Assembly: GCA_012520035.1 (NCBI GenBank)
Contig: JAAYOY010000163.1
Location: 1 to 36,168 of the forward strand
Origin: Bacillota bacterium
GTDB taxonomy: Bacteria > Bacillota > Dethiobacteria > DTU022 > UBA8154
Direction of reading: 5' to 3'
Length of the DNA stretch: 36,168 bases
Shown here: piece after piece, positions 5,403 to 29,502 of the stretch
Layout of the letters: every line of letters starts with the position of its first letter
Position numbering within the stretch: the stretch's first letter is position 1
Made by a program: the position numbers and the translations under genes
Notes under the pieces: model-generated
Seen by the model: the letters and a program-made list of their open reading frames with translations, nothing else
What the model was told of the DNA's origin: nothing
Databases searched by the model: none

Positions 5403-5468
5403 AAAATTTAACCGGAGTAAGACTTAAAATATTTAAAAATTTAACCGGGGTAAGGCTTGAAATATTTA
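5403..5468. repeat. Two 33-bp tandem units
   Basis: aaaatttaaccggagtaagacttaaaatattta and aaaatttaaccggggtaaggcttgaaatattta. Confidence 0.85.
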
Positions 5469-5504
5469 TTAGAGAAGCAATTAGAAGACGATTAATAATG
5501 TAAG

Positions 5505-5605
5505 CCTGATCCCCGCTGATTTACTCACTTATGCAATTATTCAAACCTGATTATACATACCTGATCCCCATTGATTTACTCGCTTATGCAATTATGCAAG
5601 CCTGA
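5505..5605 (+). repeat. Two 46-bp direct units (55-bp period) of the dispersed repeat family
   Basis: cctgatccccgctgatttactcacttatgcaattattcaaacctga (5505-5550) and cctgatccccattgatttactcgcttatgcaattatgcaagcctga (5560-5605). Confidence 0.9.
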
Positions 5606-6926
5606 CACCGGTGAGGTAGTCGCCGGCGTTTTTTTTGATCAAGACCTCCCTGATTTGGCCGCGCAAATTGCCCAGTCCCGGAGCCCTTACCCGCAGGTAA
5701 TTTGAAGTTAAACCCTCCAGCAGTCCTTCTGCAGCAACTTTGCCCCCGCTGTTTTCAGCCGGAAGCACCTTTTCAAAAAGGACCTCCAGCCTGCGACCAA
5801 TAAACTTTTCCTGATAATTCCCCGCCAGTTCTTTGCCCAAGCTTATCATCTCACGGCTGCGGGCTTCCTTAATCTCCGGCCTTACCTGGCCCGCCATGGC
5901 AGCCGCCTTTGTCCCGGAGCGCGGCGAATATTTAAAAACATGCAGGCGGCTGAAGGCACACTCCCGGACAAAATCAATCCCCCGGCGAAACTGTTCCTCG
6001 CTTTCCCCGGGAAACCCCACCATGATATCGGTGCTTACCGCCAGATCCGGAAGCGCATCCCTTAACCTCTTCAACAGCCCCCTGTAAAAGGAGGTATCGT
6101 AAAGACGCCCCATTTCCTTTAATATGCGGTCATCGCCGCTTTGCAGTGGAATATGCAGGTGCCGGCAGATTTTTTTATTCTCTTTTATCACTTCTATAAG
6201 CTTATCCCCAAAATCCCAGGGCTCGATTGAGCTGAGCCGCAACCTTTCTATCCCCTCAACGGCGGCAGCCCTCTCCAAAAAGGAACCCAAATCTAACGGG
6301 GGCTGCAGGTCTATGCCGTATAAGCCCAGGTGGATCCCGGTAAGAACAACCTCTTTATAACCGGAGCGGCTGATCTCCTGTAAGTATTCCAGAGCTTTCT
6401 GCAGAGGAAGGCTTCTAAGCGGCCCCCGCGCCCGGGGGATTATACAGTAGGTGCAAAACTGCCTGCAGCCGTCCTGGATCTTTAAAAAGGCCCTGGTCCT
6501 TTCCCCTTCGCCCACCCAGGGAAGCTCTTCAAAGGCCGCTTCCTTTCCATACGCGTCAATCCCGGTAAGAACATCCTCTCCGGCCAGTTTCTTTCTTACC
6601 ATCTCCGGTATGGCAAGCCGGCCTGCGGTTCCGGTTACCAGATCGACTTGCCCGAGGGAAGATATATCCTCCGGGCTTACCTGTGCATAACAACCGGTGA
6701 CGGCCACCAGCGCTGACGGATTGCGCCTTTTCGCCCTGCGAATAATCTGCCGCGATTTACGCTCTGCCAGGTGGGTAACCGTGCAGGTGTTAATTACATA
6801 CACATCGGCAGGTTCTTCAAAATCTACGACCTCGAATCCTGCCCGGCGGAATTCCCCCTTCAGCGCCTCCGATTCATAATAATTCACCTTACAACCCAGC
6901 GTGTGAAAGGCCACCTTTAACGGCAT
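5592..6926 (-). CDS. mtaB: tRNA (N6-L-threonylcarbamoyladenosine(37)-C2)-methylthiotransferase MtaB
   Basis: HTLGCKVNYYESEAL, radical-SAM CxxxCxxC (CRQFCTYC), TRAM-like C-terminus; start MPLKVAFHTLGC preferred over the upstream Met. Confidence 0.93.
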   Translation of the reverse strand: MPLKVAFHTLGCKVNYYESEALKGEFRRAGFEVVDFEEPADVYVINTCTVTHLAERKSRQIIRRAKRRNPSALVAVTGCYAQVSPEDISSLGQVDLVTGTAGRLAIPEMVRKKLAGEDVLTGIDAYGKEAAFEELPWVGEGERTRAFLKIQDGCRQFCTYCIIPRARGPLRSLPLQKALEYLQEISRSGYKEVVLTGIHLGLYGIDLQPPLDLGSFLERAAAVEGIERLRLSSIEPWDFGDKLIEVIKENKKICRHLHIPLQSGDDRILKEMGRLYDTSFYRGLLKRLRDALPDLAVSTDIMVGFPGESEEQFRRGIDFVRECAFSRLHVFKYSPRSGTKAAAMAGQVRPEIKEARSREMISLGKELAGNYQEKFIGRRLEVLFEKVLPAENSGGKVAAEGLLEGLTSNYLRVRAPGLGNLRGQIREVLIKKNAGDYLTGVRLA

Positions 6927-7138
6927 CCCAAGCCGCCTCCTTCCAAGCAACATTCATCGACATGACCCTCTAAACTCAAAACTTAATAAATATCCCGCTC
7001 TGAAGAGCGCCTGTTAATCCCTGCAAATGGCGCAATGGTTGAAATCACGATTTTACGGTATAGTAACGGTTTTGAGTTTGGTTTAGTATTGCGAGTTTTT
7101 TACCAATGCTGCCGGCTGCAACCGGCAGCGGCCTTTTA

Positions 7139-7891
7139 CTACCCCCCCAGGTCTCCCCAGAGATACATGACTATGGAAAGGACGGCCAGAGGAGCCGTCT
7201 CCGCCCTCAAAATACGCGTCCCCAGGGTTACAGGGCGCACTCCCCGGCATTGCCTTAATTTCTCCATTTCCGAAGGGGAAATTCCCCCCTCCGGCCCGGT
7301 GAAAATTGCCAGTGCGCGCGGCGGCTCCGGAAAATCCCGTGCAAGCTGCGCAAAGCCCCTCTCCTTTTCTCCCTCCCAGGGGATAATAATTATTTCTTCC
7401 CGCCCGGAAGCCAATTCATGCAACATATCATCAAAGCTAAGAGGCCCCTCCACCCGGGGGACAAAACGGCGCCTGCACTGTGACGCTGCAGAAAAAGCTA
7501 TCTTCTGCCAGCGCGCGGCCTTTTCACGCCCCTTTTTCTCCGAATATTTTACCACCGACCTCCCCGTCAATACCGGGGCGATCCTCCTTACACCCAGCTC
7601 CACCGCATGCCGGATAACTTCATCCAGCTTCTCCCCCTTGGTAATACCCGGGTAAAGCGTCACTTCAAGGGGGGGCTCCACCTCTGTCTCTACCTCGCCT
7701 AAAAGCGAAGCAGCGGCATCCTCTTTGCGGATATAATCCAAACGGGCATAGAATGCCCGCCCTTCTCCGTCGGAAAGAACGATAATATCACCCGCTTTCA
7801 GGCGTAAAGCCTTCAGGTGCTGCAGAATATCCCCGGGCAAAACAACCCTTTCCTGAAAAGACTCTGGAGAAAGAAAAAACCAGAAAGACAT
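7139..7891 (-). CDS. rsmE: 16S rRNA (uracil1498-N3)-methyltransferase
   Basis: 250 aa; IFTGPEGGISPSEMEKLR and LGTRILRAETAPLAVLSIVMY motifs. Confidence 0.93.
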   Translation of the reverse strand: MSFWFFLSPESFQERVVLPGDILQHLKALRLKAGDIIVLSDGEGRAFYARLDYIRKEDAAASLLGEVETEVEPPLEVTLYPGITKGEKLDEVIRHAVELGVRRIAPVLTGRSVVKYSEKKGREKAARWQKIAFSAASQCRRRFVPRVEGPLSFDDMLHELASGREEIIIIPWEGEKERGFAQLARDFPEPPRALAIFTGPEGGISPSEMEKLRQCRGVRPVTLGTRILRAETAPLAVLSIVMYLWGDLGG

Positions 7892-7995
7892 TGATTATCA
7901 CCCTAAAACGTCAAAATATATAAAAAATACAGCCTTGAAATACGAACACCAGTACGGTATAATTTCATGGAATACTACAAAAGGAGTTTTCATCT

Positions 7996-8613
7996 ATGAG
8001 ATGTAATCTGGAAGAAATGAAAAAAGAAATAGCGGCACTTATCCCCGCCTCCCATCCACAGGGAGGGGAGGCCACCCTGCTGATTACCGTTAAGGGTGAA
8101 AAGATCCTGGACAGGCGTTCAATAAACTGGATCATCAGGCGCCTGGCGGAATATCATAACATAGACCTCCGCGCAATCAAAAAAAACTACGGGCCGCTTC
8201 TGGGTAAAAAGAGGTTTATCCCTCTTCCTCTATCCCAAAAGCTTGTGTATCTCCCCTTGACATTGAAAACCGATACCATCCCCGTAGACAAAAGAATGGC
8301 TTATATCTCCCTTGAGCAGATCCGTGGAGTCGAAAGAAAAGAAAACGCAAAAGAAAGCACGGTAAATATATTGCTGCGCTGCGGCATTGAGCTTGCATGC
8401 TGCAACGCTTTAACCACAATAAGAACCAGGATCCGGGACAGCAAGTTAATACAAAAAATTATCCTGAGCGAACAGGAGGAAAAAGGGAAATATGTCTTAA
8501 ACCTGGAAGGCGGGCCCGCTTTCATTGCGGAAAACGGCCCAGAGCAGGACGAAATAGCCCGTTTAACGGCTGCATTGCTTTACTTCAGCAAGTGCCACAG
8601 CCGTTATAATTAA
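7996..8613 (+). CDS. Hypothetical protein, possible distant ComK-like regulator
   Basis: 205 aa with good RBS (aaaggag); ILDRRSINWIIRRLAEYHNIDLRAIKKNYGPLLGKKRFIPLPLSQKLVYLPL pattern resembles ComK (PF06338) by eye only. Confidence 0.6.
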   Translation: MRCNLEEMKKEIAALIPASHPQGGEATLLITVKGEKILDRRSINWIIRRLAEYHNIDLRAIKKNYGPLLGKKRFIPLPLSQKLVYLPLTLKTDTIPVDKRMAYISLEQIRGVERKENAKESTVNILLRCGIELACCNALTTIRTRIRDSKLIQKIILSEQEEKGKYVLNLEGGPAFIAENGPEQDEIARLTAALLYFSKCHSRYN

Positions 8614-8618
8614 TAATC

Positions 8619-8660
8619 CGGCGCAGGCCGCTAAGAGGAAAAGGGGAAAGGCCTGCGCCG
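8619..8660. terminator. Long inverted repeat (11-bp perfect arms) between convergent genes
   Basis: cggcgcaggcc (8619-8629) / ggcctgcgccg (8650-8660), 20-nt polypurine loop; no clean T-tract on either side. Confidence 0.5.
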
Positions 8661-8711
8661 TCCAAAAAACAGTATTCGAGGATATTTCATGTCCGGATAA
8701 CTATAAAACCG

Positions 8712-9857
8712 TTACTTTCCGCCTCCAAGGGTTTCTTTTACGCGGCTGATAAAGCCCTTGTCCTCCTGCGGTTCAACAAGTTTCAACCCGCTGGCCTCAG
8801 CAAATTCGCGAAGAATTTTTTTCTGGCGGGAGTTTAGCTTGCGCGGAACATCCACTTTTATCCTAACCAGCTGATCCCCTTTGCCGAAACCCCGCAGGGA
8901 AGGCACCCCTTTACCTTTCAGACGGAATACAGCGCCCGGCTGAGTTCCTTCGGGAATGCGCAGTTTCGCCTTGCCATCCAGGGTAGGAACCTCGATTTCC
9001 GCCCCCAGGGCGGCGTAAACAAAATCAAGATCAATTTCGCAAATAAGGTTGTTATCCTGCCGTTTAAATATTTTATGAGGACGCACGTGAATAACAACAT
9101 ACAGATCGCCGGGAGGCCCTCCCCTTGTCCCGGCCTCGCCCTCGCCGGATACGCGCAACTTGGAACCGCTGTCCACCCCTGCCGGGATTTTAATCTCGAT
9201 TTTCCTTTCCACAAAAACCTTGCCCTCGCCGTTGCACCTGGAGCATTTTTCCTGGATAATACTCCCGGTACCTCCACATTTCACGCAGGGATGCACGCTG
9301 ACAAAACGTCCGAAGGCGGTGTTTTTGACAACCTGTTGCTGCCCGCTGCCACCGCAGGCGCTGCAGGTAACCGGTTCTGTGCCTTCTTTGGCACCCGTGC
9401 CTTTACACCGCGGACAATTTTCTGTGCGGGGTATTTTAATAAAAGTATCCTTCCCCTTGACAGCTTCTTCCAGGGATATCTCCAGGTCATAGCGCAGGTC
9501 AGCCCCGCGACGGGGCGCATTGGACTGTGACCTTTTCCTCCCGGAAAAGCCGCCGCCGAAAAAAGAGTCGAAAATATCCTCAATCCCAAAATCGCCGAAA
9601 CCGCCTCCAAACCCTCCAAATCCCTGAAATGCTTCATCCTGGTGACCGAAACGATCATAATTTTCCCTTTTGACAGGATCGCTGAGAACATCATAAGCTT
9701 CCTTAACTTCCTTAAACTTGGCCTCGCTCTCTTTATCCCCGGGGTTAACATCCGGATGATACTTGCGGGCGAGATTCCGGTAAGCTTTCTTGATCTCATC
9801 CTGGCTGGCATCCCTGCTTACGTTAAGAACCTCGTAGTAATCTCTTTTATCAGCCAT
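8712..9857 (-). CDS. dnaJ: Chaperone DnaJ
   Basis: [22 protein letters not shown] region, four CxxCxGxG zinc repeats. Confidence 0.98.
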
Positions 9858-9891
9858 ATTTATTCATTCGCCCCTTTAGAAACAAACGGCC

Positions 9892-11748
9892 TTATTTTTT
9901 TTCTTTATCATCATCGACTACTTCATAATCGGCATCCACCACATTTTCATCCTGGCCGCTTTGCGGACCTTCCTGTCCGCCAAAACCCCCGCCCCCTCCA
10001 GCCTGCTGTTGCTGCTTTACCTGCTCGTAAAGTTTGGAGGATATCTCATGGAGAAGACCGCTCAATTTTTCAGAGGCGTTTTTGATTTTACCGATATCTT
10101 CACCCGCCATCGTATCTTTTAACTCTTTTATGGCCCCGTCTATTTTTTCTTTAATACCGCTCTCAACCTTATCACCCAGATCGCGGAGAGTTTTCTCTGT
10201 GGAATAGATGAGCGAATCAGCCTGGTTCCGTGCATCGATCAATTCCTTGCGCTTCGCATCCTCCGCAGCATGCTTTTTGGCATCTTCGACCATTTTTTCT
10301 ATCTCTTCATCGCTCAATCCGGAAGTAGCCGTAATGGTTACCTTCTGTTCTTTTCCCGTGCCGAGGTCTTTGGCCAGCACATTGACAATGCCATTGGCAT
10401 CAATATCAAAGGAAACCTCTATCTGGGGCACCCCTCTGGGGGCAGGGGGTATACCGTCCAAAATAAAACGGCCCAGGGTTTTATTTCCCGCCGCCATTGG
10501 GCGCTCACCCTGCAGGACATGGATTTCAACGCTGGTCTGATTATCGGCCGCGGTAGAAAAGATTTGTTTTTTGGATGTGGGTATAGTCGTGTTTCTTTCA
10601 ATAATTTTTGTAAACACCCCGCCGAGGGTTTCAATACCCAATGAAAGGGGAGTTACATCCAGCAGCAGGACATCCTTGACTTCACCTGCCAGAACCCCTG
10701 CCTGTATAGCCGCCCCCATTGCGACCACTTCGTCTGGGTTAACGCCCTTGTGAGGTTCTTTCCCAAGGATATCTTTTAACATCTTTTGGACCAGCGGGAC
10801 CCTCGTGGACCCTCCCACAAGGATTACCTTATCAATATCCGCGGCAGTAAGATTGGCATCGGATAGTGATTGGCGCACAGGCCCGGCCGTCTTCTCTACC
10901 AGATCGCTGATCAGATCTTCAAACTTGGCCCTGCTGAGAGTTACATCGAGGTGCTTGGGGCCGTCGGCTGTAGCTGTAATAAAGGGAAGATTGATATTGG
11001 TACTTGTAACGCTGGAAAGTTCGATCTTTGCCTTTTCGGCAGCATCCTTCAACCTCTGGGCGGCCATTTTGTCCTTGCTCAGATCAACCCCGGTCTCTTT
11101 TTTAAATTCGGAGATCAGGTATTCCGTAATACGCTCATCGAAGTCATCACCGCCGAGACGGTTGTTGCCGCTGGTGGCTTTCACCTCAAAAACCCCATCC
11201 CCCAGCTCCAGGATGGAAACATCAAAAGTTCCCCCGCCAAGGTCATATACCAGAACAGTTTGCGCATCACCATTGTCAAGACCGTAAGCCAGAGCTGCTG
11301 CAGTCGGTTCGTTAATTATCCGCAACACTTCAAGCCCGGCAATCCTGCCGGCATCCTTGGTGGCCTGCCTCTGGCTGTCGGTAAAATATGCCGGAACAGT
11401 AATAACGGCTTTATCGACTTTTTCTCCCAGATAGCTCTCCGCGTCGGCCTTGAGTTTTTGTAAAATCATCGCCGAAATCTCCGGCGGGGAATATTCCTTG
11501 TTATCAATTTTCACCTTATAACTTGTTCCCATTTCTCTTTTTATAGAAAGAATAGTACGATCAGGATTGGTGATAGCCTGTCTTTTGGCAACCTGGCCTA
11601 CCATTCTTTCCCCCTCTTTGGTAAAAGCTACAACCGAAGGGGTTAATCTACTGCCCTCCGCATTTGGAATTATCTCCGGCGCCCCGCCTTCCAAAACAGC
11701 AACAGTAGAGTTGGTTGTACCTAGGTCTATACCCACCACTTTTGACAT
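9892..11748 (-). CDS. dnaK: Chaperone DnaK (Hsp70)
   Basis: [22 protein letters not shown]..., [21 protein letters not shown]; start at MSKVV rather than the track Met. Confidence 0.98.
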
Positions 11749-12003
11749 ATTTCCAGCCTCCTTAAATTGGATCAGTATATTTTTAAAACAGTACATTAAT
11801 ATTTAAAAAGCTTAGCCTTGCAGGAAACATACTCATGCGTGCTAAGGAATAATAACTTGCTTAATGGTTCACAACCTAATAAAGTATTTTTAAAAATTAG
11901 CCTTTATATTCCCATATACTCTTATACTCTTTTATTCCGTTTGCGCTATACAGTTAAAATAAGCTTTAGGAAATAATAGCTTTTCAGGGTGAGCGCCTTG
12001 GGT

Positions 12004-12696
12004 TTATTCAACAGAGACTTTTACCATACTTGCCCTTAATACCCTGCCGTTCATCATATAACCCTTTTGGAACTCATCTAAAACGGTATTGGCAGGATAA
12101 TCATTACTTGCTTCCGTTGCTACCGCTTCATGACAGTTCGGATCAAAAGGCTGCCCCATGCAATCAATGGGGGTAACTCCTTCCTTCCTCAAAATTTCCA
12201 GCAAATTTTTTAATATCAACTCCAGACCCTCAAGAATGCCCTTTGGATTTGTATCCGGAGCGGAACAGGCCCTCTCCATATTGTCTATTACCGGGAGCAG
12301 CTTTTGAATAAGATTATAATTTGCATATTGCGTTAGCTCTTCTTTCTCTGCGCGAACCCGCTTCCTGTAGTTGTCAAAATCAGCCTGCAAACGCAGAAGC
12401 CTGTTCATCAGCTCACTATTCTCTTCTTCCAGGGCAGCAATTCTATGTTTGAGTTCTTCCGGCGCCGCCTCAGGAGATTCCCCACCGTCGGCCGCGTCTT
12501 CCGAACACTCTTCAGGTTCGCCGGACTCGCCGGGAAGAGGCGATTTTTCACCCTCCTGCCAAGTAACAGGTTCATTTATACCATGAGCAGCAAAGGCCTC
12601 TTTGTCCTGCGACATTTCTTCTTTTTGATTTAAACGCTGTTGTTCCTCACCGGCAGGCTGCTCCATATTCTTTTTTTCTTCTTTTTCTTCCGCCAA
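12004..12696 (-). CDS. grpE: Nucleotide exchange factor GrpE
   Basis: LLRLQADFDNYRKRVRAEKEEL...GYMMNGRVLRASMVKVS. Confidence 0.95.
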   Translation of the reverse strand: MAEEKEEKKNMEQPAGEEQQRLNQKEEMSQDKEAFAAHGINEPVTWQEGEKSPLPGESGEPEECSEDAADGGESPEAAPEELKHRIAALEEENSELMNRLLRLQADFDNYRKRVRAEKEELTQYANYNLIQKLLPVIDNMERACSAPDTNPKGILEGLELILKNLLEILRKEGVTPIDCMGQPFDPNCHEAVATEASNDYPANTVLDEFQKGYMMNGRVLRASMVKVSVE

Positions 12697-12725
12697 TTAA
12701 GCTCACTCCTTGATGCTCTTCTTCG

Positions 12726-13754
12726 CTATAATCTTCCCAGATGATTGACCACCTGCTCAATCACGGCAACCGTTTTTGCATAATCCATGCGTGTCGGCCC
12801 CAGAACACCTATAGTACCCGCCACTTCTTTACCCAGGCAGTACGTCGCCATAACAAGGCTGCAATCATGCACTTCTTCAAGAATATTTTCCCTACCTATC
12901 TTGATTACTATTCCCTTTACACCCGCTACCGGCCTTGAAAGTAGAGTTGCCAGTAAAGAGTTTTGTTCAAAGAGAGATAGTAGGGATTTAACCTTCTCAA
13001 TATCTCCGAACTCCGGCTGGTTGAGAATGTTTGTTGTACCGCCAAGGAAAACCCTTCTTTCATCTTCGGCCAGACTGTCCTGGAGCAGCGTAAAAGTATC
13101 TTCGAGAAATTGAATATGATGGTAAAGATCCCGGCGAAGCTCAACGATGAGACTGGAAGTGATTTTATCGATGGTCAAGCCATCCAGCCGCATATTGAGG
13201 TAGGACACAATGCGGTTGAGCTCACCCGGAGAAAGGGTCTGTGGCAGATTAATTACCTTACTTTTTACAAAACCTGTATCGGCAACAAGCACCAGCAGCC
13301 CTCTTTGATGATCGACCGGCATAATCTGCAGCTTTTTAAAAGCGCTTTTCTTCAGCTGCGGACCCAGAATTAAAGAAGTATAATTAGTAAGCAAAGATAA
13401 AAGGTTTGAAGTATGCTTGATAATCTCTTCGATCTCCTTCAATTTTTCGAAATCGTAAACCTGCCTGATCTTGTCTCTTACCTCCTCCTCCAGGTCAGGT
13501 GCCTCCATCAGATCATCTACATAATAACGGTATCCTTTCTGTGATGGTATTCTCCCTGCAGATGTATGGGGCTGGATCAAAAACCCTAATTCTTCAAGGT
13601 CTGCCATTTCATTGCGAATGGTTGCAGGGCTTAAACCCACTTTGTAGCGCCTGGCAAGGGTGCGAGAGCCGACAGGTTGTGCTGTCCTGATATACTCTGT
13701 TATTATTGCATGCAGAATTTGTTTTTTCCGCTCACTGAGCGCCATCCCTTTCAC
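12726..13754 (-). CDS. hrcA: Heat-inducible transcription repressor HrcA
   Basis: LSERKKQILHAIITEYIRTAQPVGSRTLARRYKVGLSPATIRNEMADLEELGFL; real start may be MALSERK. Confidence 0.96.
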   Translation of the reverse strand: MKGMALSERKKQILHAIITEYIRTAQPVGSRTLARRYKVGLSPATIRNEMADLEELGFLIQPHTSAGRIPSQKGYRYYVDDLMEAPDLEEEVRDKIRQVYDFEKLKEIEEIIKHTSNLLSLLTNYTSLILGPQLKKSAFKKLQIMPVDHQRGLLVLVADTGFVKSKVINLPQTLSPGELNRIVSYLNMRLDGLTIDKITSSLIVELRRDLYHHIQFLEDTFTLLQDSLAEDERRVFLGGTTNILNQPEFGDIEKVKSLLSLFEQNSLLATLLSRPVAGVKGIVIKIGRENILEEVHDCSLVMATYCLGKEVAGTIGVLGPTRMDYAKTVAVIEQVVNHLGRL

Positions 13755-13766
13755 CCCTTTTTAAAA

Positions 13767-13793
13767 TTAGCACTCCAACATTGAGAGTGCTAA
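13767..13793. promoter_or_regulatory. CIRCE element (HrcA operator)
   Basis: TTAGCACTC-N9-GAGTGCTAA, perfect inverted repeat just upstream of hrcA. Confidence 0.98.
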
Positions 13794-13872
13794 CCATCCA
13801 TTTTTACCATACCACCCGCTTTTTAATTTGTCAAGTTTAATCTTGGTTCCATTAATAATTATTGTATATTTT

Positions 13873-15651
13873 TTAGGCAAAAAGTTTCAGAAAATACTCT
13901 ACCAACTGCGGATCAAACTGGGTACCGGAACAGCGTTTAATCTCGGAGATCGCCTCCTCATGGCTGAGCGCCTTCCTGTAAGGCCGCTCGCTTGTCATGG
14001 CGTTATAAGCCTCAACTATGGCGACAATGCGACAGGGTAAAGGTATTTCATGGGCTTTCAGGCCGTTAGGGTATCCTCCGCCATTCCACCACTCATGGTG
14101 AGAAAGAATATAGTTTGCTACTACTTCAATCTCTGAGGATGAGAGGGCAATATGCTGACCGATTAATGGATGCTTCTCCATAACTTTTCTTTCCTGGGGA
14201 AGCAGGGCTCCTTTTTTATAGATAATGTTATCGGGAATTGCAACCTTTCCGATATCATGCACCAGCGAGAGCACGGCTACGGCAGCAATATCTTCCCGTC
14301 TCAGGCCCGCTTCCTTTGCAAGGGTGACCGCCATCGACTGCATATTATTTCTATACCCGGGAGGTATGGATAATTTCTCATGGACATTGTTGAGCAAGGA
14401 ATAGACCACGGCACTTTTCGAACAAGCATTTATCTTATTGTTGTACATATCGCTGTCGGCTTCCTTAAATGTTTCAACGAGCGGGATGTCCGGATCCGTA
14501 TTGGTGCTTACCCCCAGCGAAACACTCAGCGGCAGTTCGGGATTTTTACGGTTGTACTCTTCGATAGATTCATTTATGCGCCGGCATGCTTCTTTCGCTA
14601 CATCCATGGAGGTAAGAGGCAAAAGAATTACAAACTCATCGCCTCCAATCCTGGCAATCACATCTGAAGAACGAAAAGGAGACTTAATCGTCTCTGCAAC
14701 AGCTTTTAAAAGGCTATCCCCCTTGCCGTGTCCAAAGGTGTCATTAATCAGTTTCAGATCATCTACATCGCATACGATAATGCTTACCGGTCGGAAACGC
14801 GGGTTCTCCAGCCTGCGCATTTCCTCCTCAAAATAAGCTCTGTTGTATATGCCGGTTAGCGGGTCATGCGTGCTGAGGTACTCCAGGCGTTCCTCCACCT
14901 TTTTCCTTTCCGTAATATCCATCTCCATACGAATAGCCTCCAGGCAGCGCCCTCCTTCAAAAACGGGAAACATGCTGGAATAGACCCATCTTTTTTCCCC
15001 ATTTGCGGTATTAATGGCAAATTCCCTATTTTCAACCGGAAGGCCTCTGTCAAAGACCCACTTAAGATCATTTAAAAATTTTCTCTCTTCTTTACCTTTT
15101 AGGAATAGCTTATGAAAAGGTTTCTCCAACACCTCTTTTATGCTCATTCCATACAGCTTTTCCGATACCGGATTCCAGTGGTAGATACAGCCGTTGGCAT
15201 CAAAGCCCTGAACCGCAACCATCGGGGTATGCTTGATAATGGACTCGAAGCGCCCCATGGCTTCGGTCAGGGCCTTCTCCATCCTCTCGCGCTGGGTATA
15301 ATCTCTGCAAATCCCCACCACCCCTTCAGGTTTCCCATCCCGAAAATAAACGGCATTACGATATTCCAGAAGGCGCTCCTGTCCCTTTTCGGTAAGGACA
15401 ACTACAACCCCGGTAAGATACTTTTCTCTTTTTATAGACTGCAGATAATGCAAGTATTTTTCCTTATACCTGTTAGGCAAAAAATTCAGGATAGATTTGT
15501 TAAGGACGTCATACGGGGAATAGCCGAGCAATTTTTGTACATAACGATTAATATAACGAATGCGTCCCTCAAGGTTATGGACAATAATCAGGTCCTCAAG
15601 AAGCTCAAATAGTTCCGGTTCCGGAGTAAAACTTACAATGCTGTTTGCCAT
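13873..15651 (-). CDS. PAS-PAS-GGDEF-HD-GYP signalling protein
   Basis: Two PAS domains, IGGDEFVILLP with upstream RxxD (RSSD), VHDIGKVAIP and HHEWWNGGGYPNGL HD-GYP motifs. Confidence 0.93.
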   Translation of the reverse strand: MANSIVSFTPEPELFELLEDLIIVHNLEGRIRYINRYVQKLLGYSPYDVLNKSILNFLPNRYKEKYLHYLQSIKREKYLTGVVVVLTEKGQERLLEYRNAVYFRDGKPEGVVGICRDYTQRERMEKALTEAMGRFESIIKHTPMVAVQGFDANGCIYHWNPVSEKLYGMSIKEVLEKPFHKLFLKGKEERKFLNDLKWVFDRGLPVENREFAINTANGEKRWVYSSMFPVFEGGRCLEAIRMEMDITERKKVEERLEYLSTHDPLTGIYNRAYFEEEMRRLENPRFRPVSIIVCDVDDLKLINDTFGHGKGDSLLKAVAETIKSPFRSSDVIARIGGDEFVILLPLTSMDVAKEACRRINESIEEYNRKNPELPLSVSLGVSTNTDPDIPLVETFKEADSDMYNNKINACSKSAVVYSLLNNVHEKLSIPPGYRNNMQSMAVTLAKEAGLRREDIAAVAVLSLVHDIGKVAIPDNIIYKKGALLPQERKVMEKHPLIGQHIALSSSEIEVVANYILSHHEWWNGGGYPNGLKAHEIPLPCRIVAIVEAYNAMTSERPYRKALSHEEAISEIKRCSGTQFDPQLVEYFLKLFA

Positions 15652-15680: not shown

Positions 15681-15810
15681 CGGGGGCAGGCTTGCATTTT
15701 GCTTTTTCCAGTATAACTTATCTTTCAACTTTATTTCTTTATACTAATGAATGAAATGCCGTATAATTATTAATAGCACAAAATGTAATAGATCCAAGCC
15801 TAACCCCATT
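15681..15810. repeat. Inverted pair of the GGGGTCAGGCTTGCAT family (about 130 bp, MITE-like)
   Basis: Left cgggggcaggcttgcattttgc (15681-15702); right gatccaagcctaaccccatt (15791-15810), inverted. Confidence 0.6.
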
Positions 15811-16585: not shown

Positions 16586-16858
16586 TTAATAGTGCCGATA
16601 TTGTTGATATAGCCAACATGAAGGAACGAATCGAAAGATATGCAATAATGCAAGCCTGACCCCATAGCGTTTGCCGCCAAAGATTATCGAGATACCCTTA
16701 TCCGTAATTTCGAATTGCATAGCCTGGGAAGGACCTTCCAGCGCCAGGATGTGACAGATACCTTTTTCCGCAATATTTAACCCCCAGTAGATAATAAATA
16801 TAAAGATCATTATCCCTAAAATAAATAAGGCTAAAGGTTTTAAACTCAAGGCGGTCAT
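16586..16858 (-). CDS. Small single-TM hypothetical protein with C-terminus altered by the dispersed repeat
   Basis: MTALSLKPLALFILGIMIFIFIIYWGLNIAEKGICHILALEGPSQAMQFEITDKGISIIFGGKRYGVRLALLH...; GVRLALLH is encoded by the repeat. Confidence 0.5.
   Translation of the reverse strand: MTALSLKPLALFILGIMIFIFIIYWGLNIAEKGICHILALEGPSQAMQFEITDKGISIIFGGKRYGVRLALLHIFRFVPSCWLYQQYRHY
16641..16664 (+). repeat. Dispersed repeat family copy
   Basis: tgcaataatgcaagcctgacccca; near-consensus copy. Confidence 0.75.
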
Positions 16859-20879: not shown

Positions 20880-21929
20880 ATGTCCGAAGAAAAACTGCGT
20901 CTGACAATGATGACTTCGAGCTCGGGGTGAGCAGCCAAAATAGGCCCCGGGGCTCTGGCACAGGTGCTGTGCCGATTACCTCTAAGCGATGACCCTAACT
21001 TTATCAACAAGGACCAGCACTTTGCCGATGCCGGAATATACCGCATATCGGAGAACCTCGCGCTGGTTCAAACTGTGGATTATTTCACCCCCGTTACAGA
21101 TGATCCATATCTATTCGGGCAAATCGCCGTTGCCAACTCGCTGAGCGATGTTTATGCCGTGGGAGGAAAACCGCTCACAGCGATGAATATTATCTGTTTC
21201 CCCTGCAAAAAGCTTCCCCTGGAGTATATGGAGGCGATCCTGCAGGGAGGGCTCTCCAAGATGCTGGAGGCCAATGTAACGCTGGTCGGAGGACACAGTG
21301 TCGATGACCTTGAGCCCAAGTACGGCCTGTCGGTCACCGGCATAGTTGATCCGGGGAAAATGATCACCGGCTCCGGAGCGAAGCCGGGGGACTCCCTGGT
21401 TTTAACCAAACCCCTGGGGACGGGGATCATTGTAACCGCCCTGAAGGGGGATTTCCTGAGCCCACAGGAGGCTGCCGATACGTTCCAGGGCATGGCAACG
21501 TTAAACGCCGCCGCATCCAGGGCTATGGTTCGGGCAGGGGTTTCCGCCTGCACGGATGTAAGCGGGTTTGGCCTGGTGGGACATCTCCAGGAGATGCTCA
21601 TCTCAAGCAAAGTCGGCGCACGAATTAATTTGAAAGCATTGCCGCTCTACCGGGGTGTGGCTGAGATGTCCGCGCAGGGACTTATTCCCGGCGGCGATTA
21701 CCGCAATCTGGAGTATTACAAAAAAGACCTAATCTTTGAAGCGGAAGAAAGCGAACTGCAGGAGAGTATGATATTGCTTGCGGATGCCCAGACATCCGGC
21801 GGCCTGCTTATGGCCGTTTCCCCTACGCGCCTGGAGCAGCTATTGGCCGAACTGTATAAAGAAGGCTCGCAGGGATATGTTATCGGTGAAATTACCGCCG
21901 GACCGGAAGGGAAAATAGCAATATATTAA
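20880..21929 (+). CDS. selD: Selenide, water dikinase SelD containing selenocysteine (in-frame TGA at 20928-20930)
   Basis: ATG at 20880 after tggagg RBS: MSEEKLRLTMMTSSSG-U-AAKIGPGALAQVLCRLPLSDDPNFINKDQHFADAGIYRI...; frame continuous with track ORF 20964-21929. Confidence 0.95.
20957..20973 (+). promoter_or_regulatory. SECIS-like hairpin in the selD mRNA
   Basis: ggcacag-gtg-ctgtgcc perfect 7-bp stem; apical GTG starts 33 nt after the TGA. Confidence 0.8.
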
Positions 21930-22034
21930 CGCACTATTTGCGCTTTGTTAGCGCTAAACGCCAGGCCGCAATCCGGTTATTAAATACAGGTATTAAACAG
22001 CTATATACTGTGGAGATACTATCGAAGGTGAGTT

Positions 22035-22733
22035 ATGAAAAACAAGCTGGACTATGATTTTACTTCCCTGGAGGGAATTTTTCAGAGGCCGGAACCTCTC
22101 AATGTTTTTGCCCTGGAGAGAATGGGTGCGGTTAAAGACCTTTTAAGGGATAGAGAAAGCTATAGCTGCCCCCCATCCTGCCGGCAGTGCTGTTACGGTT
22201 CTATCCTGATGTCGTATACCGAGTTTACCTATATCATGCTTTACCTGCAGGAAAGCTGGTCATGGGAAAAGATCTTCGCCTTGTTCCGGACGAGAGTCGG
22301 CCTGCTGACGGATAACGATGGTACCGGTACATTGCTCTGCCCATTCCTGCAAGAAGATGCTGAGAAAGAACACTGCAGCATCTACCCGGCAAGGCCGCTC
22401 ATCTGCCGCGTTTTTGGGACCACAGCAGCGCCCTGTGAAGAACCCATCAACCCTTCGGCCATGGAGGAAAGCCTTTTCTACCGGGCCTACGATCTTCTTT
22501 ATTATGGCCACGGCAGGGAAAACTTCATTGCCCTCAATCTTCATAAAAATTGGGCAGTCTATGAAGCACCTTTCGCCCTGTGGTGCCTGGCCGACAACAG
22601 TAAAGAAACAAGGATATACCTGTATAATTTGATTGCCGGGCAGAAAAATTCCTTTAACGCTGTTCTTTACGACCGGGAAAAATGTAATTTTTTTGTTTAC
22701 CGCAGCGGTTACAAAACAATACTGAACCAATAA
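22035..22733 (+). CDS. YkgJ-type cysteine cluster protein
   Basis: CPPSCRQCCYGSILMS and CPFLQEDAEKEHCSIYPARPLICRVFG motifs. Confidence 0.85.
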   Translation: MKNKLDYDFTSLEGIFQRPEPLNVFALERMGAVKDLLRDRESYSCPPSCRQCCYGSILMSYTEFTYIMLYLQESWSWEKIFALFRTRVGLLTDNDGTGTLLCPFLQEDAEKEHCSIYPARPLICRVFGTTAAPCEEPINPSAMEESLFYRAYDLLYYGHGRENFIALNLHKNWAVYEAPFALWCLADNSKETRIYLYNLIAGQKNSFNAVLYDREKCNFFVYRSGYKTILNQ

Positions 22734-22851
22734 TACCGGGCAACAATCCCGACCTCAAAAGCTTGATTCTAAAAAAGGGTTAAATATTTCCTGTTTCACT
22801 TAAAAAGAGAACATGTTATATTATATTAAACTTTAACCGGAGGAAAATCGT

Positions 22852-24147
22852 TTGCAACATTTTTTTATGTTGATATTTTTTTCCTTTTGGGGAGGAGTCT
22901 TGCTAGCATATATTCCTCTTTACAAAAGGCCAACCCTGTATTTTTTTGCAGAATTTTTTAAAGGAGTTGCTGTTGCCGCTGCAGCACTTTTTTTTGTTGG
23001 AACACCTACTGCCCTTGTAGTAGCCGGTTTTGGACTGCTGGCCGGGAATTTGTGGTTTCCCCTTCCGCATTGGAAAAAGAGAGAATCGATATATGGCAAT
23101 GTATCCGGATTACTTCTGTTTTTAGCCCCAGACCTTTTTCTGCTTTTTGTATCCTGGGTAATAATCATTTACCTGCTGCGACAGGAGCCGGTAAATGAAA
23201 TATTTATGTCATTCTACCTCTTATTACCCCTGCTTATGCTCTTAACAGGGAAGAGCGATATCTATATTCTCTTTAGCACCCTAATTTTAATCATTGTTTT
23301 AATAGATAATCTAAAAAGGCTGGAAGACGGGCTAAAAATTGCAATCAAAAAGGCCGGATGGAAAATCCTCTGTAACCGGCAGCCTGTTTTGTCACCCGCA
23401 TGTAGGAAAAACCTGCGTCGTGTAGGGTACGTTTCAGTGGTACTCCTCCTGTTGCTGGCTTTTTTTCTCAACCGCTATGTTTACCGCGGCTTCGGGATGC
23501 AGGTAGAGCTTTTTCGCAGCGGGCCCAAAGAGCTCAAGGTCGTCGCATTGACATTTGATGACGGGCCGGATCCGCGCTTTACTCCTTTAATTCTCGATAT
23601 TTTAGAAGAGTACGATATCAAGGCAACTTTTTTCATGGTAGGCAAACACGCGGAAAAATATCCCCATATAGCCCGTCTGGTAGAAGAAGCAGGCCATGAG
23701 ATCGGCAACCATACTTACAGCCATGCCAATTTGTTGCAGGCTTCAGCTTACCGCATCTCAAACGAGATAACCAGGGGAGAAGAGGCGATCCTAAACTCTA
23801 CCGGAAAACGTCCTTCTTTGTTGCGCCCACCCAGGGGGTTGTATAATCCCACGGTGAAGGAGAAGGCACGGGAAATGGGCTATACCATCGCCCTCTGGTC
23901 TCTTTCCTCCAATGATTGGCTGGAGTTGCGCCCGTTGGATATTACACGCAGAATTCTGCGAAACGTATCCAACGGCGACATCATCCTCTTCCATGACAGC
24001 GGTGATCTGATTAGGTCCGAAGGCGGGGACCGTCTGTCTACGGTACTCTCCCTTAAACCCATTATTGAGGGATTAAAGGAACAGGATTATATTTTCGTTA
24101 CCATTACTGAAATGATGATCCTCTCCGGGCTGAGCGGGGATATTTAA
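22852..24147 (+). CDS. Polysaccharide deacetylase (NodB domain) with multi-TM N-terminal domain
   Basis: VVALTFDDGPDPRFTPLILDIL, ATFFMVGKHAEKYP, EIGNHTYSHANL, LRPPRGLYN; N-terminal ~180 aa multi-TM. Start is TTG (ttgcaacat). Confidence 0.9.
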   Translation: MQHFFMLIFFSFWGGVLLAYIPLYKRPTLYFFAEFFKGVAVAAAALFFVGTPTALVVAGFGLLAGNLWFPLPHWKKRESIYGNVSGLLLFLAPDLFLLFVSWVIIIYLLRQEPVNEIFMSFYLLLPLLMLLTGKSDIYILFSTLILIIVLIDNLKRLEDGLKIAIKKAGWKILCNRQPVLSPACRKNLRRVGYVSVVLLLLLAFFLNRYVYRGFGMQVELFRSGPKELKVVALTFDDGPDPRFTPLILDILEEYDIKATFFMVGKHAEKYPHIARLVEEAGHEIGNHTYSHANLLQASAYRISNEITRGEEAILNSTGKRPSLLRPPRGLYNPTVKEKAREMGYTIALWSLSSNDWLELRPLDITRRILRNVSNGDIILFHDSGDLIRSEGGDRLSTVLSLKPIIEGLKEQDYIFVTITEMMILSGLSGDI

Positions 24148-24252
24148 CTCAACTCCTGGAAAATTAGAAAAAGGACTTCAGTTGAGCCATCGAATAAAGC
24201 AACAGCAGAAAACAAAAAAACATGCGGCAAAAAAAAGAGGAGGTAAGAAAAG

Positions 24253-24885
24253 TTGAAATGGCAGATTCGGCCCGCTTCGCCTGAAGATTTGAATCAGGTA
24301 GCGGCTCTTTTTCTGGAATCATTCGAAGAAACCATTGGGCACTTCTTTAAAGACGGCCCACCGCCTGCGGCAGCCCTGGAGGATTTCTTCTGTTTTCTCT
24401 TAAAAGAAGAACCCGAAGCCTTCTGGGTCGCCCGGCAGGAGGAAAAAGCTGCAAAAAGCATCCTGGGGTACATTGTTGTTGTCGCCGATCTTCCCTTTTT
24501 ATGGCGCCGTGCCTTCCTGGGAGGTTATGTTTTCCACTGGGCCAAGCGCTTCCTGCAGGGTGTTTACGGCGTTAATATCAGGGTTGCCTGCCGCATTTTG
24601 CAGAATAAGTTTGCCTTTTGGCGCCATTCACGTTCTATGCCCCAGTACTGCTCACAAATCCTCTCACTGGCTGTAACCGGGAACTGCCGGGGAAAGGGCC
24701 TCGGCCGAAAACTGCTGGAAAACGGCATTCTCTATTTACATAAACGCGGGAAAAAGAACATTAAGCTGGAGGTACGCCCCTGGAACAAGACCGCTCTGGG
24801 ACTATACAGCAGTATCGGCTTTAAACCCGCAGGAACTACCAGGGACAGCCAGGGGGAATGGCTGGTAATGGTAAAAACCTCCTGA
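24253..24885 (+). CDS. GNAT family N-acetyltransferase
   Basis: SLAVTGNCRGKGLGRKLLENGILYLHKRGKKNIKLEVRPWNKTALGLYSSIGFKPAGTT; TTG start. Confidence 0.88.
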   Translation: MKWQIRPASPEDLNQVAALFLESFEETIGHFFKDGPPPAAALEDFFCFLLKEEPEAFWVARQEEKAAKSILGYIVVVADLPFLWRRAFLGGYVFHWAKRFLQGVYGVNIRVACRILQNKFAFWRHSRSMPQYCSQILSLAVTGNCRGKGLGRKLLENGILYLHKRGKKNIKLEVRPWNKTALGLYSSIGFKPAGTTRDSQGEWLVMVKTS

Positions 24886-24895
24886 CAAGCTGTTA

Positions 24896-24923
24896 ATAAT
24901 TGAATAAATCGGGCCTGCCCCCG
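24896..24923 (+). repeat. Dispersed repeat family copy (degenerate)
   Basis: aataattgaataaatcgggcctgcccccgt. Confidence 0.55.
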
Positions 24924-24926
24924 TCT

Positions 24927-25412
24927 TTAGCCTGAAAATATACTGAACAGGCCATAACTTACAGTCGCAATAATAATGGCTGCAATCATATTACCGAAAA
25001 ATATGGCCGGCAACGCCCATTTGATTCGGATATCAAGAAGTGCTGCAATAAGACTTCCGGTCCACACACCCGTACCGGGCAAAGGAATAGCAACAAAGAT
25101 GAAAAGACCCCAGGCCCCATACTTTTGCACTTTATGCGCTTTGCCATTCCCCAGCGTTCTTTCCGTTAATTTTTCCACCGGTTTCTTAAAATACCTGGTG
25201 GTTCTTAGGTACTTGAAAAGAGGCCTGACTGCATACAGGATCAGAGGTGACGGAACCATGCTGCCGATAAAAGACAAAAAAGTAGCATGCAGTGGGGATA
25301 ATCCAAGGGAGATGCCCACCGGGATCGCACCTCTAAGCTCTATTACCGGGAGTGCTGCAGTTAATAACACCGTAAATTCTACCGATAAAAAATTAAGGAA
25401 TTCAGTCAGCAA
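24927..25412 (-). CDS. Small multi-drug export protein (COG2426/PF06695-like)
   Basis: LPVIELRGAIPVGISLGLSPLHATFLSFIGSMVPSPLILYAVRPLF...GLFIFVAIPLPGTGVWTGSLIAALL; TTG start. Confidence 0.88.
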   Translation of the reverse strand: MLTEFLNFLSVEFTVLLTAALPVIELRGAIPVGISLGLSPLHATFLSFIGSMVPSPLILYAVRPLFKYLRTTRYFKKPVEKLTERTLGNGKAHKVQKYGAWGLFIFVAIPLPGTGVWTGSLIAALLDIRIKWALPAIFFGNMIAAIIIATVSYGLFSIFSG

Positions 25413-25431
25413 AAAATATATACCACCATTT

Positions 25432-25562
25432 CGGGGGCCGGGCTTGCATTATTACTATTAATTAATCGCAATTTGCTCCAAAGCTGTTTTGCGCTACACC
25501 CTCAAAAATGTTCCATGAAAATTTCTAACAATAACGCAATTAATGCAACCCTGACCCCATTA
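25432..25562. repeat. Inverted pair of the repeat family (about 130 bp, MITE-like)
   Basis: Left cgggggccgggcttgcattatt (25432 on); right acgcaattaatgcaaccctgaccccatta (25534-25562), inverted. Confidence 0.65.
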
Positions 25563-26762
25563 CTGTTTCCCATGCACATAATAATACAAAATAACAGACA
25601 AGAGCACAACAATAGCCAGCGTCAGATACGTCCCGCGAAAATCTACCAACTGAACAATTATCCCCGTTAGATACGGCCCAATCCCCATGCCCCCGTCCAT
25701 GCAAATAAAAAAGGTTGAAGTAGCTAATCCAACCCGTAACTTCGGTGATTTTTTAATAGCAATCGCCTGCGAACAGGACATCAGTGTCCCGAAACCAAGT
25801 GCAACCAGCGCCCCTGCCAATAGAAGGATGAAGCCGTTATAAGCATAGCTAAGCAATAACAGGCTCAATGAAAATAATAATATTGACGGATAAATAACGA
25901 AATTATCCCCTTTGAGATCCAGCAACCTGCCTGTAAACGGCCGAGAGATAAAAAGAAAAATGGCATACACAATAAAAAAGAAACCGGCTGCATCCTGCAG
26001 TTGTATTTGGATTGCATATGAATTAAGAAAAGAAACGATGCCTGAATAGGCTATGCCCATTATCACCATCATAATTGAAATGGAGAAGGCCTTTTTTTCA
26101 AAGAAATCCTGTATTCCAAACCCTCTTTTCAACGCCCGGCGTTGTTCTTCGGTTAAATTCGCTTCAGGGATTTTGGAAAATAATATAATAACAAGGCTAA
26201 TCGCGGAAAATAAAGTGCAGGCAGCAAAAATCATCTTAAAATCTGCACGCTGCAAAATAAAAAGACCGATAAAAGGCCCAAGCGCTGTCGCGGCAGTTGG
26301 GCTTAACGAAAAATAACTTGTCCCTTCCCCTTTCCGCTCATCGGGAATCAGATCCATTGCGGCAGTTGCCGCGGTTGTAGTCGCAATGCCAAAAGCAACC
26401 CCGTGTATAAAACGAACCGCCAGCAATAGACCCAAGCTATTGGCCGGAAAGTATAACAGCGTGGCAATCAAAAACAATAAAAGGCCTGCGTAAAGCAACT
26501 TCCTGCGCCCAATTACTTCAATATATCTGCCCGTTAGCAGGCGTGAAAAAAGTGATGCAATAATAAAAATGCCGGCAGCAAGACCGGCCTCGCTCTGTGA
26601 AGCGCCAAACTGCTCAACCACATAAACAGCCAGGGTGGTCATTAATATGTAAAAATTAAGAGCAATAAAGAAAGCCACCAAAAGTATAATAATGAAATCC
26701 TTCGTCCATAAGCTAGATTTACTCAATTTGTTCAATTCCGTTACCTCGTGCAAAGCTTGCAT
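25560..26762 (-). CDS. MFS transporter
   Basis: 12-TM profile, GRYIEVIGRRKLLYAGL loop motif; 400 aa. Confidence 0.9.
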   Translation of the reverse strand: MQALHEVTELNKLSKSSLWTKDFIIILLVAFFIALNFYILMTTLAVYVVEQFGASQSEAGLAAGIFIIASLFSRLLTGRYIEVIGRRKLLYAGLLLFLIATLLYFPANSLGLLLAVRFIHGVAFGIATTTAATAAMDLIPDERKGEGTSYFSLSPTAATALGPFIGLFILQRADFKMIFAACTLFSAISLVIILFSKIPEANLTEEQRRALKRGFGIQDFFEKKAFSISIMMVIMGIAYSGIVSFLNSYAIQIQLQDAAGFFFIVYAIFLFISRPFTGRLLDLKGDNFVIYPSILLFSLSLLLLSYAYNGFILLLAGALVALGFGTLMSCSQAIAIKKSPKLRVGLATSTFFICMDGGMGIGPYLTGIIVQLVDFRGTYLTLAIVVLLSVILYYYVHGKQ

Positions 26763-26771
26763 TTTTGCTTT

Positions 26772-28598
26772 CTATATTTTGGGAGTATATTCCTTAAACC
26801 CCAATAACAGGCCGAGATCGGTCCCCACTATTTCCGAAAGACTGTTCAGCTCCTTTAAAACATCCTCCTCGCGAAGCCGGGTATCGGGAGCGATATAGAT
26901 GCGCTCATGCTTAGTTTTCATAAAGTTTTCCCTGTCGCTGAAAAGCTCCTCGCAAAGCTTTTCTCCCGGCCTCACGCCGGTTAGCTTAATCTCGATATCC
27001 TTCCCCGGCTGCAAACCTGACAAAAGGATCATATCTTTTGCCAGATCCATAATCTTCACCGGCTCGCCCATGTCCAGGATAAAGATCATACCCTTTTCGC
27101 CCAGCGCCCCTGCCTGGATTACCAATTGCACCGCCTCGGGTATAGTCATAAAATAGCGGGTCATCTCCGGGTGAGTCACCGTCAACGGCCCTCCCCTGGC
27201 TATCTGTTCCTTGAAAAGGGGTACCACGCTCCCACGGCTTCCCAGAACATTGCCGAAGCGAACGGCACAAAAGATACAATTTCCGTTTTTGCGTGCCCGG
27301 TGCTGCATATAGATCTCCGAAGCCCTTTTTGTTGCTCCCATTACACTGGCAGGGTTTACCGCTTTATCAGTGGAGATAAAAACAAACCTTTCAACACCGT
27401 AACGTTCGGACAGGTCCACCAGATTTTTTGTCCCCTGCACATTATTTTGTACCGCCTGCCTGGCGTTTGCCTCCATCAAGGGTACATGTTTGTGGGCTGC
27501 CGCATGAAAAACAACCTGCGGCCGATAAGCTTGAAATACCTCCTCCAGACTCTTAAAGTCCTGTACATCCCGCACCAGGGGATACACTTTGAGCTCAGGA
27601 TTTTTCTCCGCCAGCTCCCTGTTTATGTAAAATATACCGTTTTCGTCATGATCGAGAAGCAGCAGTGCCTGCGGCCCCAACAAAGAAACCTGCCGGCAGA
27701 GCTCCGAACCGATAGAGCCGCCGGCTCCTGTAACCATAATAACTTTCCCGGACAAATAGCCGGAGATCTCCTGAATATCAACCTGCACCTGCTCCCTTTT
27801 TAAAAGGTCCTCGATCTCTACTTCCTTCAGGTGGGTGAGGTTCACCTGCCCTCCCAACAGCTCAAAGATGCCGGGGATAATTTTCAACTTCACCGGGAGC
27901 TCTTTGCAAAGGTTGATAATTTTCCGCTGCTCGCTATAGGCAGCCGAAGGCATGGCGATTACGATTTCCTTAATCCCCTTTTCCTCTACAATTCCGGGAA
28001 GATCATCCCTTGTTCCCAGCACAGGAAGCCCGTGGATAACCTGCCCCCGTTTATTGGGATCATCGTCTATAAAACCTGCCAGCCTTGCCCCCAGGGTGGA
28101 TTCGTGCTTTTTCAGCTCCCGGGCAGCCATGGCACCTGCATCCCCTGCTCCCACAATTAAAACCGGCCGCCGCCCGTTGTTATTGCCGTTTATCTTCTTC
28201 AGATACTTCGCCAGCACCCTCAGCGAAAAACGGGAGCCGCCAATAAAAAAGAGTAATAAAACCCCATAGATAATATAGACACTGCGCGGAAGCATGAGCT
28301 CAAAATACCAGCTGTAAAGCAAGCTTACCGTAGAGCCTGCCCCAACGGTAAATACGATGAGTAATAGCTCGTCCACGCTGGCATATCGCCACAGGCGCCG
28401 GTAAATGCCAAAAAAAATAAATATCAGGATTTGCATAGCAATTACCGGCCAGAGAAGGCTCTCAAAATTATTCGTATATACCGATGGTATACGACCCTCA
28501 AAGCGCAATACCAAAGCAATAAACAGGGACGCACCGATCATAACAGCATCTAATAAAGCCAGAATAATCTTCTTAAAAGTATTATTTATTCCCAACAA
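26772..28598 (-). CDS. Nucleoside-diphosphate sugar epimerase/dehydratase, CapD/FlaA1-like membrane protein
   Basis: 4 N-terminal TM, VLIVGAGDAGAMAARELK, VMVTGAGGSIGSELCRQV, AAAHKHVPLMEANA, SVMGATKRASEIYMQ. Confidence 0.95.
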   Translation of the reverse strand: MLGINNTFKKIILALLDAVMIGASLFIALVLRFEGRIPSVYTNNFESLLWPVIAMQILIFIFFGIYRRLWRYASVDELLLIVFTVGAGSTVSLLYSWYFELMLPRSVYIIYGVLLLFFIGGSRFSLRVLAKYLKKINGNNNGRRPVLIVGAGDAGAMAARELKKHESTLGARLAGFIDDDPNKRGQVIHGLPVLGTRDDLPGIVEEKGIKEIVIAMPSAAYSEQRKIINLCKELPVKLKIIPGIFELLGGQVNLTHLKEVEIEDLLKREQVQVDIQEISGYLSGKVIMVTGAGGSIGSELCRQVSLLGPQALLLLDHDENGIFYINRELAEKNPELKVYPLVRDVQDFKSLEEVFQAYRPQVVFHAAAHKHVPLMEANARQAVQNNVQGTKNLVDLSERYGVERFVFISTDKAVNPASVMGATKRASEIYMQHRARKNGNCIFCAVRFGNVLGSRGSVVPLFKEQIARGGPLTVTHPEMTRYFMTIPEAVQLVIQAGALGEKGMIFILDMGEPVKIMDLAKDMILLSGLQPGKDIEIKLTGVRPGEKLCEELFSDRENFMKTKHERIYIAPDTRLREEDVLKELNSLSEIVGTDLGLLLGFKEYTPKI

Positions 28599-28851
28599 TC
28601 GCTACTGCATCCCCCTTAACCGCCACGGCAAATCAGCTGGTTTGGCCGGAATCCCTTATATTTTCAAACGAGATACTACCGGCACTCAACAATTTTTATA
28701 CATAATTCTTCAATTTAAGAGAAAATCCTGCTAAAGTTGGAAGAAAAGATAATAAACCTGAAGACAAGCTCCAGGTTTATTCTTGTTGCCATTTTTTACA
28801 TCTTCTCAATCCGAACTTTTACTTCAGCAAGTTTCCGGGAAAGTAGTTATT

Positions 28852-28886
28852 GTTAATAAGTGAATAATTTAAGCCGGACCCCAACC
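28852..28886 (+). repeat. Dispersed repeat family copy (degenerate)
   Basis: gttaataagtgaataatttaagccggaccccaacc, immediately 3' of the desulfoferrodoxin stop. Confidence 0.6.
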
Positions 28887-28891
28887 ATTAT

Positions 28892-29272
28892 TTACACATT
28901 TGCCTTCCATAAGCCGTGAAGATTGCAGTATGCATAGACATCGGCGTTTTCTGCCTTTTCGCAGAAAACTGCTTTGGGTTCATCCCCCGGAGAAAGGGAT
29001 ACTCTCTCGATGCTATTATCCGTTACTACCGCAATCCACTCAATGTAATGCTCGTCAAGCATCGGATGAATCACAGATCCAATATCAACATATATTTTCC
29101 CATCTTTTCTTGTTGCAGCGGGGACATGCTTTTCATGAGATGCATCGACAGTATTGGCCTCAAGTTTGATCATTGGTTTACCGCAGCACACCAGCTTCCC
29201 ACCGCCATTTCTAATCAACTCCACAATATTGCCACACACCTCGCAACGATAAAATGTAACTTCTGTTTTCAT
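28892..29272 (-). CDS. Desulfoferrodoxin (superoxide reductase)
   Basis: MKTEVTFYRCEVCGNIVELIRNGGGKLVCCGKPM ... SHEKHVP ... EHYIEWI ... AYCNLHGLWK. Confidence 0.95.
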   Translation of the reverse strand: MKTEVTFYRCEVCGNIVELIRNGGGKLVCCGKPMIKLEANTVDASHEKHVPAATRKDGKIYVDIGSVIHPMLDEHYIEWIAVVTDNSIERVSLSPGDEPKAVFCEKAENADVYAYCNLHGLWKANV

Positions 29273-29458
29273 CTTCAAGACCACCTTTTTATAGAATAGT
29301 TTTCGGTTAAATAATATTAAATGATAATGCATGTTAAATAATATTAAATACGGGATGAATTGTCAATCTTACAGATACCGCATTTTTAAGGTATATCCCT
29401 ATGTTTTATCCGATTTATCACCTCATGCCTTCAAGGGCGTTGTTTTCCAGGTAAGTGT

Positions 29459-29502
29459 AAATATTTCAAGCCTGATTGCAATAATGCAAGTCTGAGCCCC
29501 TT
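29459..29502 (+). repeat. Compound dispersed repeat copy
   Basis: aaatatttcaagcctgattgcaataatgcaagtctgagcccctt: two core motifs in direct orientation. Confidence 0.7.

Follow-up and report, generated by a model that had tools for sequence, protein, structure and literature searches.

A dispersed repeat family in a Dethiobacteria genome that probably represents worn terminal inverted repeats of TIRYT/TIRtron-type elements

TIRYT elements and TIRtrons were defined with a GGGGWSAS consensus and moderately abundant terminal inverted repeat (TIR) families (Di Nocera et al. 2013, PMC3733652), and they correspond to TnpA_REP subclass 2.1 (Quentin et al. 2018, PMC6006769). For this subclass, REP-like sequences were not found, and GGGG(A/T)(C/G)A(C/G) was noted not to resemble a DnaA box; it was suggested that the C-terminal tail either ignores the end or evolved a new target (PMC6006769). 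The describers of TIRYT left open who moves what and the role of the helix-turn-helix (HTH) tail. Here, we analyzed a repeat family in a stretch of 36,168 nucleotides (the window) from a Bacillota bacterium. We conclude that its copies are very probably the TIRs of miniature non-autonomous TIRYT/TIRtron-type elements, now worn relics, whose cognate transposase would have been lost from this genome or left unassembled (assembly 90% complete).

The 28-base unit GGGGTCAGGCTTG(C/A)ATTATTKMATTATT is present at seven places in the window, far above chance, and GGGGTCAGGCTTGCA with at most two mismatches gave 9 matches in 36 kb vs 0.11 expected from shuffles. Searching with a 28-position profile built from 24 ends (own and related copies), we identified 13 half-units. 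Because this profile was partly trained on window copies, the statistical weight rests on the shuffles and on control genomes. Throughout the window's genome (G000), there were 21 matches with at most two mismatches compared with 1 for the reversed pattern, and profile hits at E ≤ 0.01 numbered 14 in G000 and 20 in the sister species (G001), compared with a total of 1 across eight same-family genomes without a motif match, which served as controls. The motif is found in some same-family genomes and is absent from most. These repeats, which we refer to by their outer sequence GGGGTCAGGC, are a real family that is limited to some genomes. An Rfam scan of the window gave no match, and when the GGGGTCAGGC string was searched in the literature, the titles among the matches listed pointed to unrelated work.

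An earlier note, made from the sequence alone, had listed a dispersed repeat family in both orientations, mostly at gene 3' ends or in intergenic gaps, and had proposed a genome-wide scan against chance. The motif was present at every place listed, and half-units were detected on both strands. The exact 29-base core given in that note matches only once within 3 mismatches (16638-16666), and it is the 28-base unit that recurs; the longer extension described as common to some copies, ATTTATTCAMTTATTAACA, does contain TTATTCACTTATT, the inner half of the A-type terminus. The elements in the window are as follows.

5414..5609: compound element with ends at 5414 (+), 5447 (+), 5513 (-), ~5550 (-) and 5609 (-); profile half-units 5417-5440 (+), 5447-5470 (+), 5492-5513 (-), 5529-5550 (-) and 5585-5609 (-)
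15682..15807: miniature element of 126 bp, ends facing inward, 30 bp upstream of the GGDEF/HD gene 13873-15651 (-); profile half-units 15682-15705 (+) and 15781-15807 (-)
16638..16663 (-): single end, the sole exact GGGGTCAGGCTTGCA copy in the genome; profile half-unit 16638-16663 (-)
24896..24922 (-): degenerate A-type end, weaker, seen by direct alignment
25434..25558: miniature element of 125 bp, ends facing inward; the MFS gene 25560-26762 (-) has its stop 1 bp away; profile half-units 25434-25458 (+) and 25541-25558 (-)
28855..28882 (-): single end of the A type; the desulfoferrodoxin gene 28892-29332 (-) has its stop 9 bp away, and gene order relative to G001 breaks here; profile half-unit 28855-28882 (-)
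29458..29499 (-): two tandem ends pointing the same way, between the divergent genes 28892-29332 (-) and 29508-30287 (+) and upstream of both; profile half-units 29458-29474 (-) and 29475-29499 (-)

The window thus contains three inward pairs, namely 15682-15807, 25434-25558 and a 68-bp pair within the compound element (5447-5514), while the remaining ends are single or tandem. All copies are intergenic or cover just the last 18 bases of a gene, with the exception of 16638-16663, which sits within an unproven 90-aa ORF. The 18 bases are those of the MiaB/MtaB-like gene 5592-6953 (-), supplied by the outer end of the compound element. A stop codon is overlapped or lies within ~10 bp in four of the seven elements; 15682-15807 and 29458-29499 are upstream of genes, and the copy at 24896-24922 lies where a GNAT gene and a small multidrug export gene converge, between their 3' ends. 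This 3'-end placement, together with the strong RNA hairpins predicted for several paired copies at gene ends, would also fit a site for a regulatory protein or a terminator that was kept by selection and not spread by mobility. We consider this explanation highly improbable: complete transposons in several Bacillota genomes have these termini as their ends, gene neighbours vary, the copies are worn, most same-family genomes are without the motif, and the motif also turns up in named genomes of Bacillota and Desulfobacterota and in a betaproteobacterium (some of these being metagenome bins). A secondary terminator role of the copies is possible, and the distribution of the motif across phyla suggests horizontal spread.

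In an alignment of 138 ends, conservation starts sharply at the first G and extends for ~28 bases, and the bases outside are nearly random. The consensus is GGGGTCAGGC, followed by TTG(C/A)ATTA-TTKMATTA-TT, and GGGGTCAG fits GGGG-W-S-A-S. As the ends were picked by their first 23 positions, conservation there is partly by construction; TTATT at positions 24-28 and the lack of outside conservation are independent of this selection. Among 40 distinct neighbouring end pairs, 36 face inward with GGGG outermost, enclosing 30-300 bp (mostly 61-103). The smallest unit seen is a 30-bp perfect palindrome, GGTGTCAGGCTTGCATGCAAGCCTGACACC, at 6128-6157 of L051, which consists of two fused ends with zero spacer. 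We do not claim a DnaA-box match for the inner end, in which A-type TTATTCACT is near TTATNCACA and C-type TTATTGCAT is not.

Short, paired, inward units near gene ends combined with a RAYT-like enzyme are also features of the classical GTAG-type REP/REPIN system, in which hairpin REPs are moved by a TnpA_REP that reads GTAG and the stem-loop, and the C-type unit contains TGCA-TTAT-TGCA, which is able to pair. However, the GTAG/CGTC tag is absent from the aligned ends, which open with GGGG (GGGGTCAGGC), the inner variation can be read as tandem 8-base direct repeats no less readily than as a hairpin, and the enzyme carries the subclass 2.1 HTH tail. Testing the end units of related sequences, we obtained a hairpin score of 367 (shuffled maximum, 344) and a direct-repeat score of 273 (shuffled maximum, 216); both were compared with arm shuffles, and kinship among the ends makes neither decisive. 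Overall, a GTAG-type origin appears unlikely, and the sharp boundary at the first G, the inward pairs and the match to GGGGWSAS plus a DnaA-type tail support the TIRYT type.

That the repeats are termini is supported by G006 (same family), Pelotomaculum UBA3103 and Desulfocucumis palustris, which carry complete RAYT elements with these ends. In each, ~1 kb lies between near-identical inverted ends, and the single gene encodes a Y1/HUH (RAYT-like) transposase, with the motif DNHVHLI in the G006 protein. The inverted ends of RAYT elements were recovered de novo. The cognate enzymes match Pfam Y1_Tnp above its cut-off and the NCBIfam REP-associated tyrosine transposase model under its cut-off, and their three tails match Bac_DnaA_C (DnaA domain IV) with E values of 2.8e-5, 0.0011 and 0.04, all below Pfam's curated cut-off. 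The features of TIRYT elements were accordingly distributed as follows: a Y1/HUH RAYT-like gene between the repeats was found in relatives and not in the window's genome; a C-terminal HTH (Bac_DnaA_C, HTH_23 or HTH_28, subclass 2.1) was found with sub-cut-off matches; and dispersed non-autonomous TIR copies were found. In the relatives, the GGGGTCAGGC end is confined to the closest RAYT homologs; others have GGGGACGGTTCT, GTGTCAGACAC and more, and these end types largely follow the tree. Being short and having terminal inverted repeats, the elements could also be taken for MITEs of a DDE transposase, but a Y1/HUH enzyme is the only gene found between these ends and the three complete elements showed no target-site duplication, leaving this origin with a very small probability.

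These data are consistent with a TIRYT-type element whose autonomous form, as seen in relatives, would be ~1 kb long with one Y1/HUH RAYT-like gene between two inward-facing GGGGTCAGGCTTGCATTATTGCA copies. The HUH domain would nick single-stranded DNA at or near the outer edge of GGGG, and the DnaA-like tail may aid recognition of the end. Gene-less short pairs and single or fused ends would have been moved in trans or left by decay. The earlier suggestion of a non-autonomous, trans-mobilised family was right in kind, given the RAYT-like elements with the same ends in relatives. Its link to RAYTs likewise stands insofar as the same sequence is the TIR of a RAYT-like element, but the repeat is of the TIRYT type and not a classical GTAG REP.

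In agreement with the earlier note, we found no Y1 transposase in the window and no transposase of any kind among the 20 products scanned. The 90%-complete G000 assembly contains two RAYTs. One, on contig C87 (L214), is bracketed by GGGGACGGTTCTT at C87:10739-10751 and 11816-11828, and this end has 119 copies in G000 within 1 mismatch, 26 of them exact and many closely paired. The other, on contig C229, has no detectable terminal repeat. The GGGGTCAGGC family comprises ~16 elements and 21 mostly worn copies, one of them exact, and we detected no cognate transposase for it in this assembly. The resident RAYTs were ruled out as its mobilisers, as the C87 ends are GGGGACGGTTCTTG and C229 is without detectable ends; the idea of a mobiliser elsewhere in the genome thus did not hold for either. 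Because the GGGGTCAGGC copies are worn and this assembly contains no cognate enzyme, they are probably relics. The simplest reading is that a family that has its enzyme remains numerous and fresh, whereas one that lacks it decays. This contrast, 119 copies of an enzyme-linked end vs 21 worn orphan copies, supports the TIRYT-type interpretation, and a population without an enzyme, next to one that has its enzyme, provides a natural control within a single genome.

To compare tails and ends, we ran 26 RAYTs against Pfam and used a local tail profile on all 49. A DnaA-like tail was called in 11 of the 49. GTCAGG(C/T) was present in the terminal repeat of all 10 tailed RAYTs with a detectable repeat and in none of the 38 RAYTs without a called tail; the nearest case is L182, whose tail scores weakly (25.7 bits) and whose repeat contains GTGCCAGGCACC. 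In a tree of the catalytic domain, the tailed RAYTs form two separate groups (one clade in 0/200 bootstrap trees; AU p, 0.053). The correlation amounts to about two independent groups, with classes that were set after seeing the data. Going beyond the published record, the match between tail and GTCAGG(C/T) among the 49 RAYTs suggests that the tail reads the end, and it favours the evolved-new-target option of PMC6006769 over no recognition. Tentatively, the DnaA-like tail might be a module that reads the GTCAGG(C/T) box, with tail and end changing together, although we would not yet bet on it. The lineage supplies matched enzyme-end pairs and a testable claim about the enzyme part responsible for reading the end.

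Contig C42 of G001, which is collinear with the window, shares several element sites with it: a 137-bp element (C42 24799-24935) lies at the site matching the compound element, for example, and the copy at 24896-24922 aligns with a counterpart at C42 1790 (+). Because G001 C42 is occupied at the same sites, several insertions probably predate the species split; sites occupied in both species give no sign of recent movement in this lineage and, like the lack of a cognate transposase in the G000 assembly, count against the explanation preferred here. We sought clean empty sites in same-genus genomes using elements of G017 and G016 and recovered none, these genomes being too divergent; therefore, movement of the elements is inferred. 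The inner part of an end is shared between C42 1797-1827 and window 28845-28875; past it, G001 runs into the exporter-gene block (window 24891-25453), placing the breakpoint inside a repeat copy. Worn relics may persist at gene ends, and repeat copies can mark rearrangement breakpoints. Seven of the ~16 elements (an approximate total) are on this 36-kb contig, which is 1.7% of the assembly (random-placement probability, ~5e-9), and the orthologous G001 contig likewise holds many (6 of 20 profile hits).

Several further observations concern these contigs. A third palindromic family, GGGACAGGTCCC...GTCCCA, is present at other G001 junctions (L210, C42 about 5290-5400; L212, C99 1-35 and 1816-1846), and RAYTs in L192 and L193 have similar ends on both sides. 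G001 C71 (L213, C71 1-6000) is 99.9% identical to window 29580-35580, and C99 carries a 95% version of part of it; these two versions reflect cross-binning or recent transfer. Window 30850-35829 (-) encodes a 1659-aa AAA helicase plus MTES_1575 nuclease protein (PADLOC PDC-S37 and Hhe-like) and is a candidate phage-defence gene.

Judged by sequence, the GGGGTCAGGC family belongs to the known TIRYT/TIRtron class and has a new end sequence. As in TIRYT/TIRtrons, GGGGWSAS terminal inverted repeats enclose the gene of a RAYT-like Y1 enzyme whose C-terminus carries a DnaA-like HTH, and dispersed TIR copies are moderately abundant and form dimers or clusters. Unlike the published examples, its end consists of GGGGTCAGGC plus two TTGCATTA-like repeats, its host range is new, and an orphan worn population lies beside the GGGGACGGTTCTT family with its enzyme in one genome. 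REP/REPIN-RAYT systems (REPtrons) likewise have a related Y1 enzyme and short units in inverted pairs close to gene ends, whereas the GGGGTCAGGC family is without the GTAG tag and an established hairpin and its enzyme has the extra HTH tail. With IS200/IS605 it shares the Y1/HUH transposase fold; those enzymes read subterminal secondary structures at the ends (PMC6006769), whereas the GGGGTCAGGC ends are near-perfect inverted repeats.
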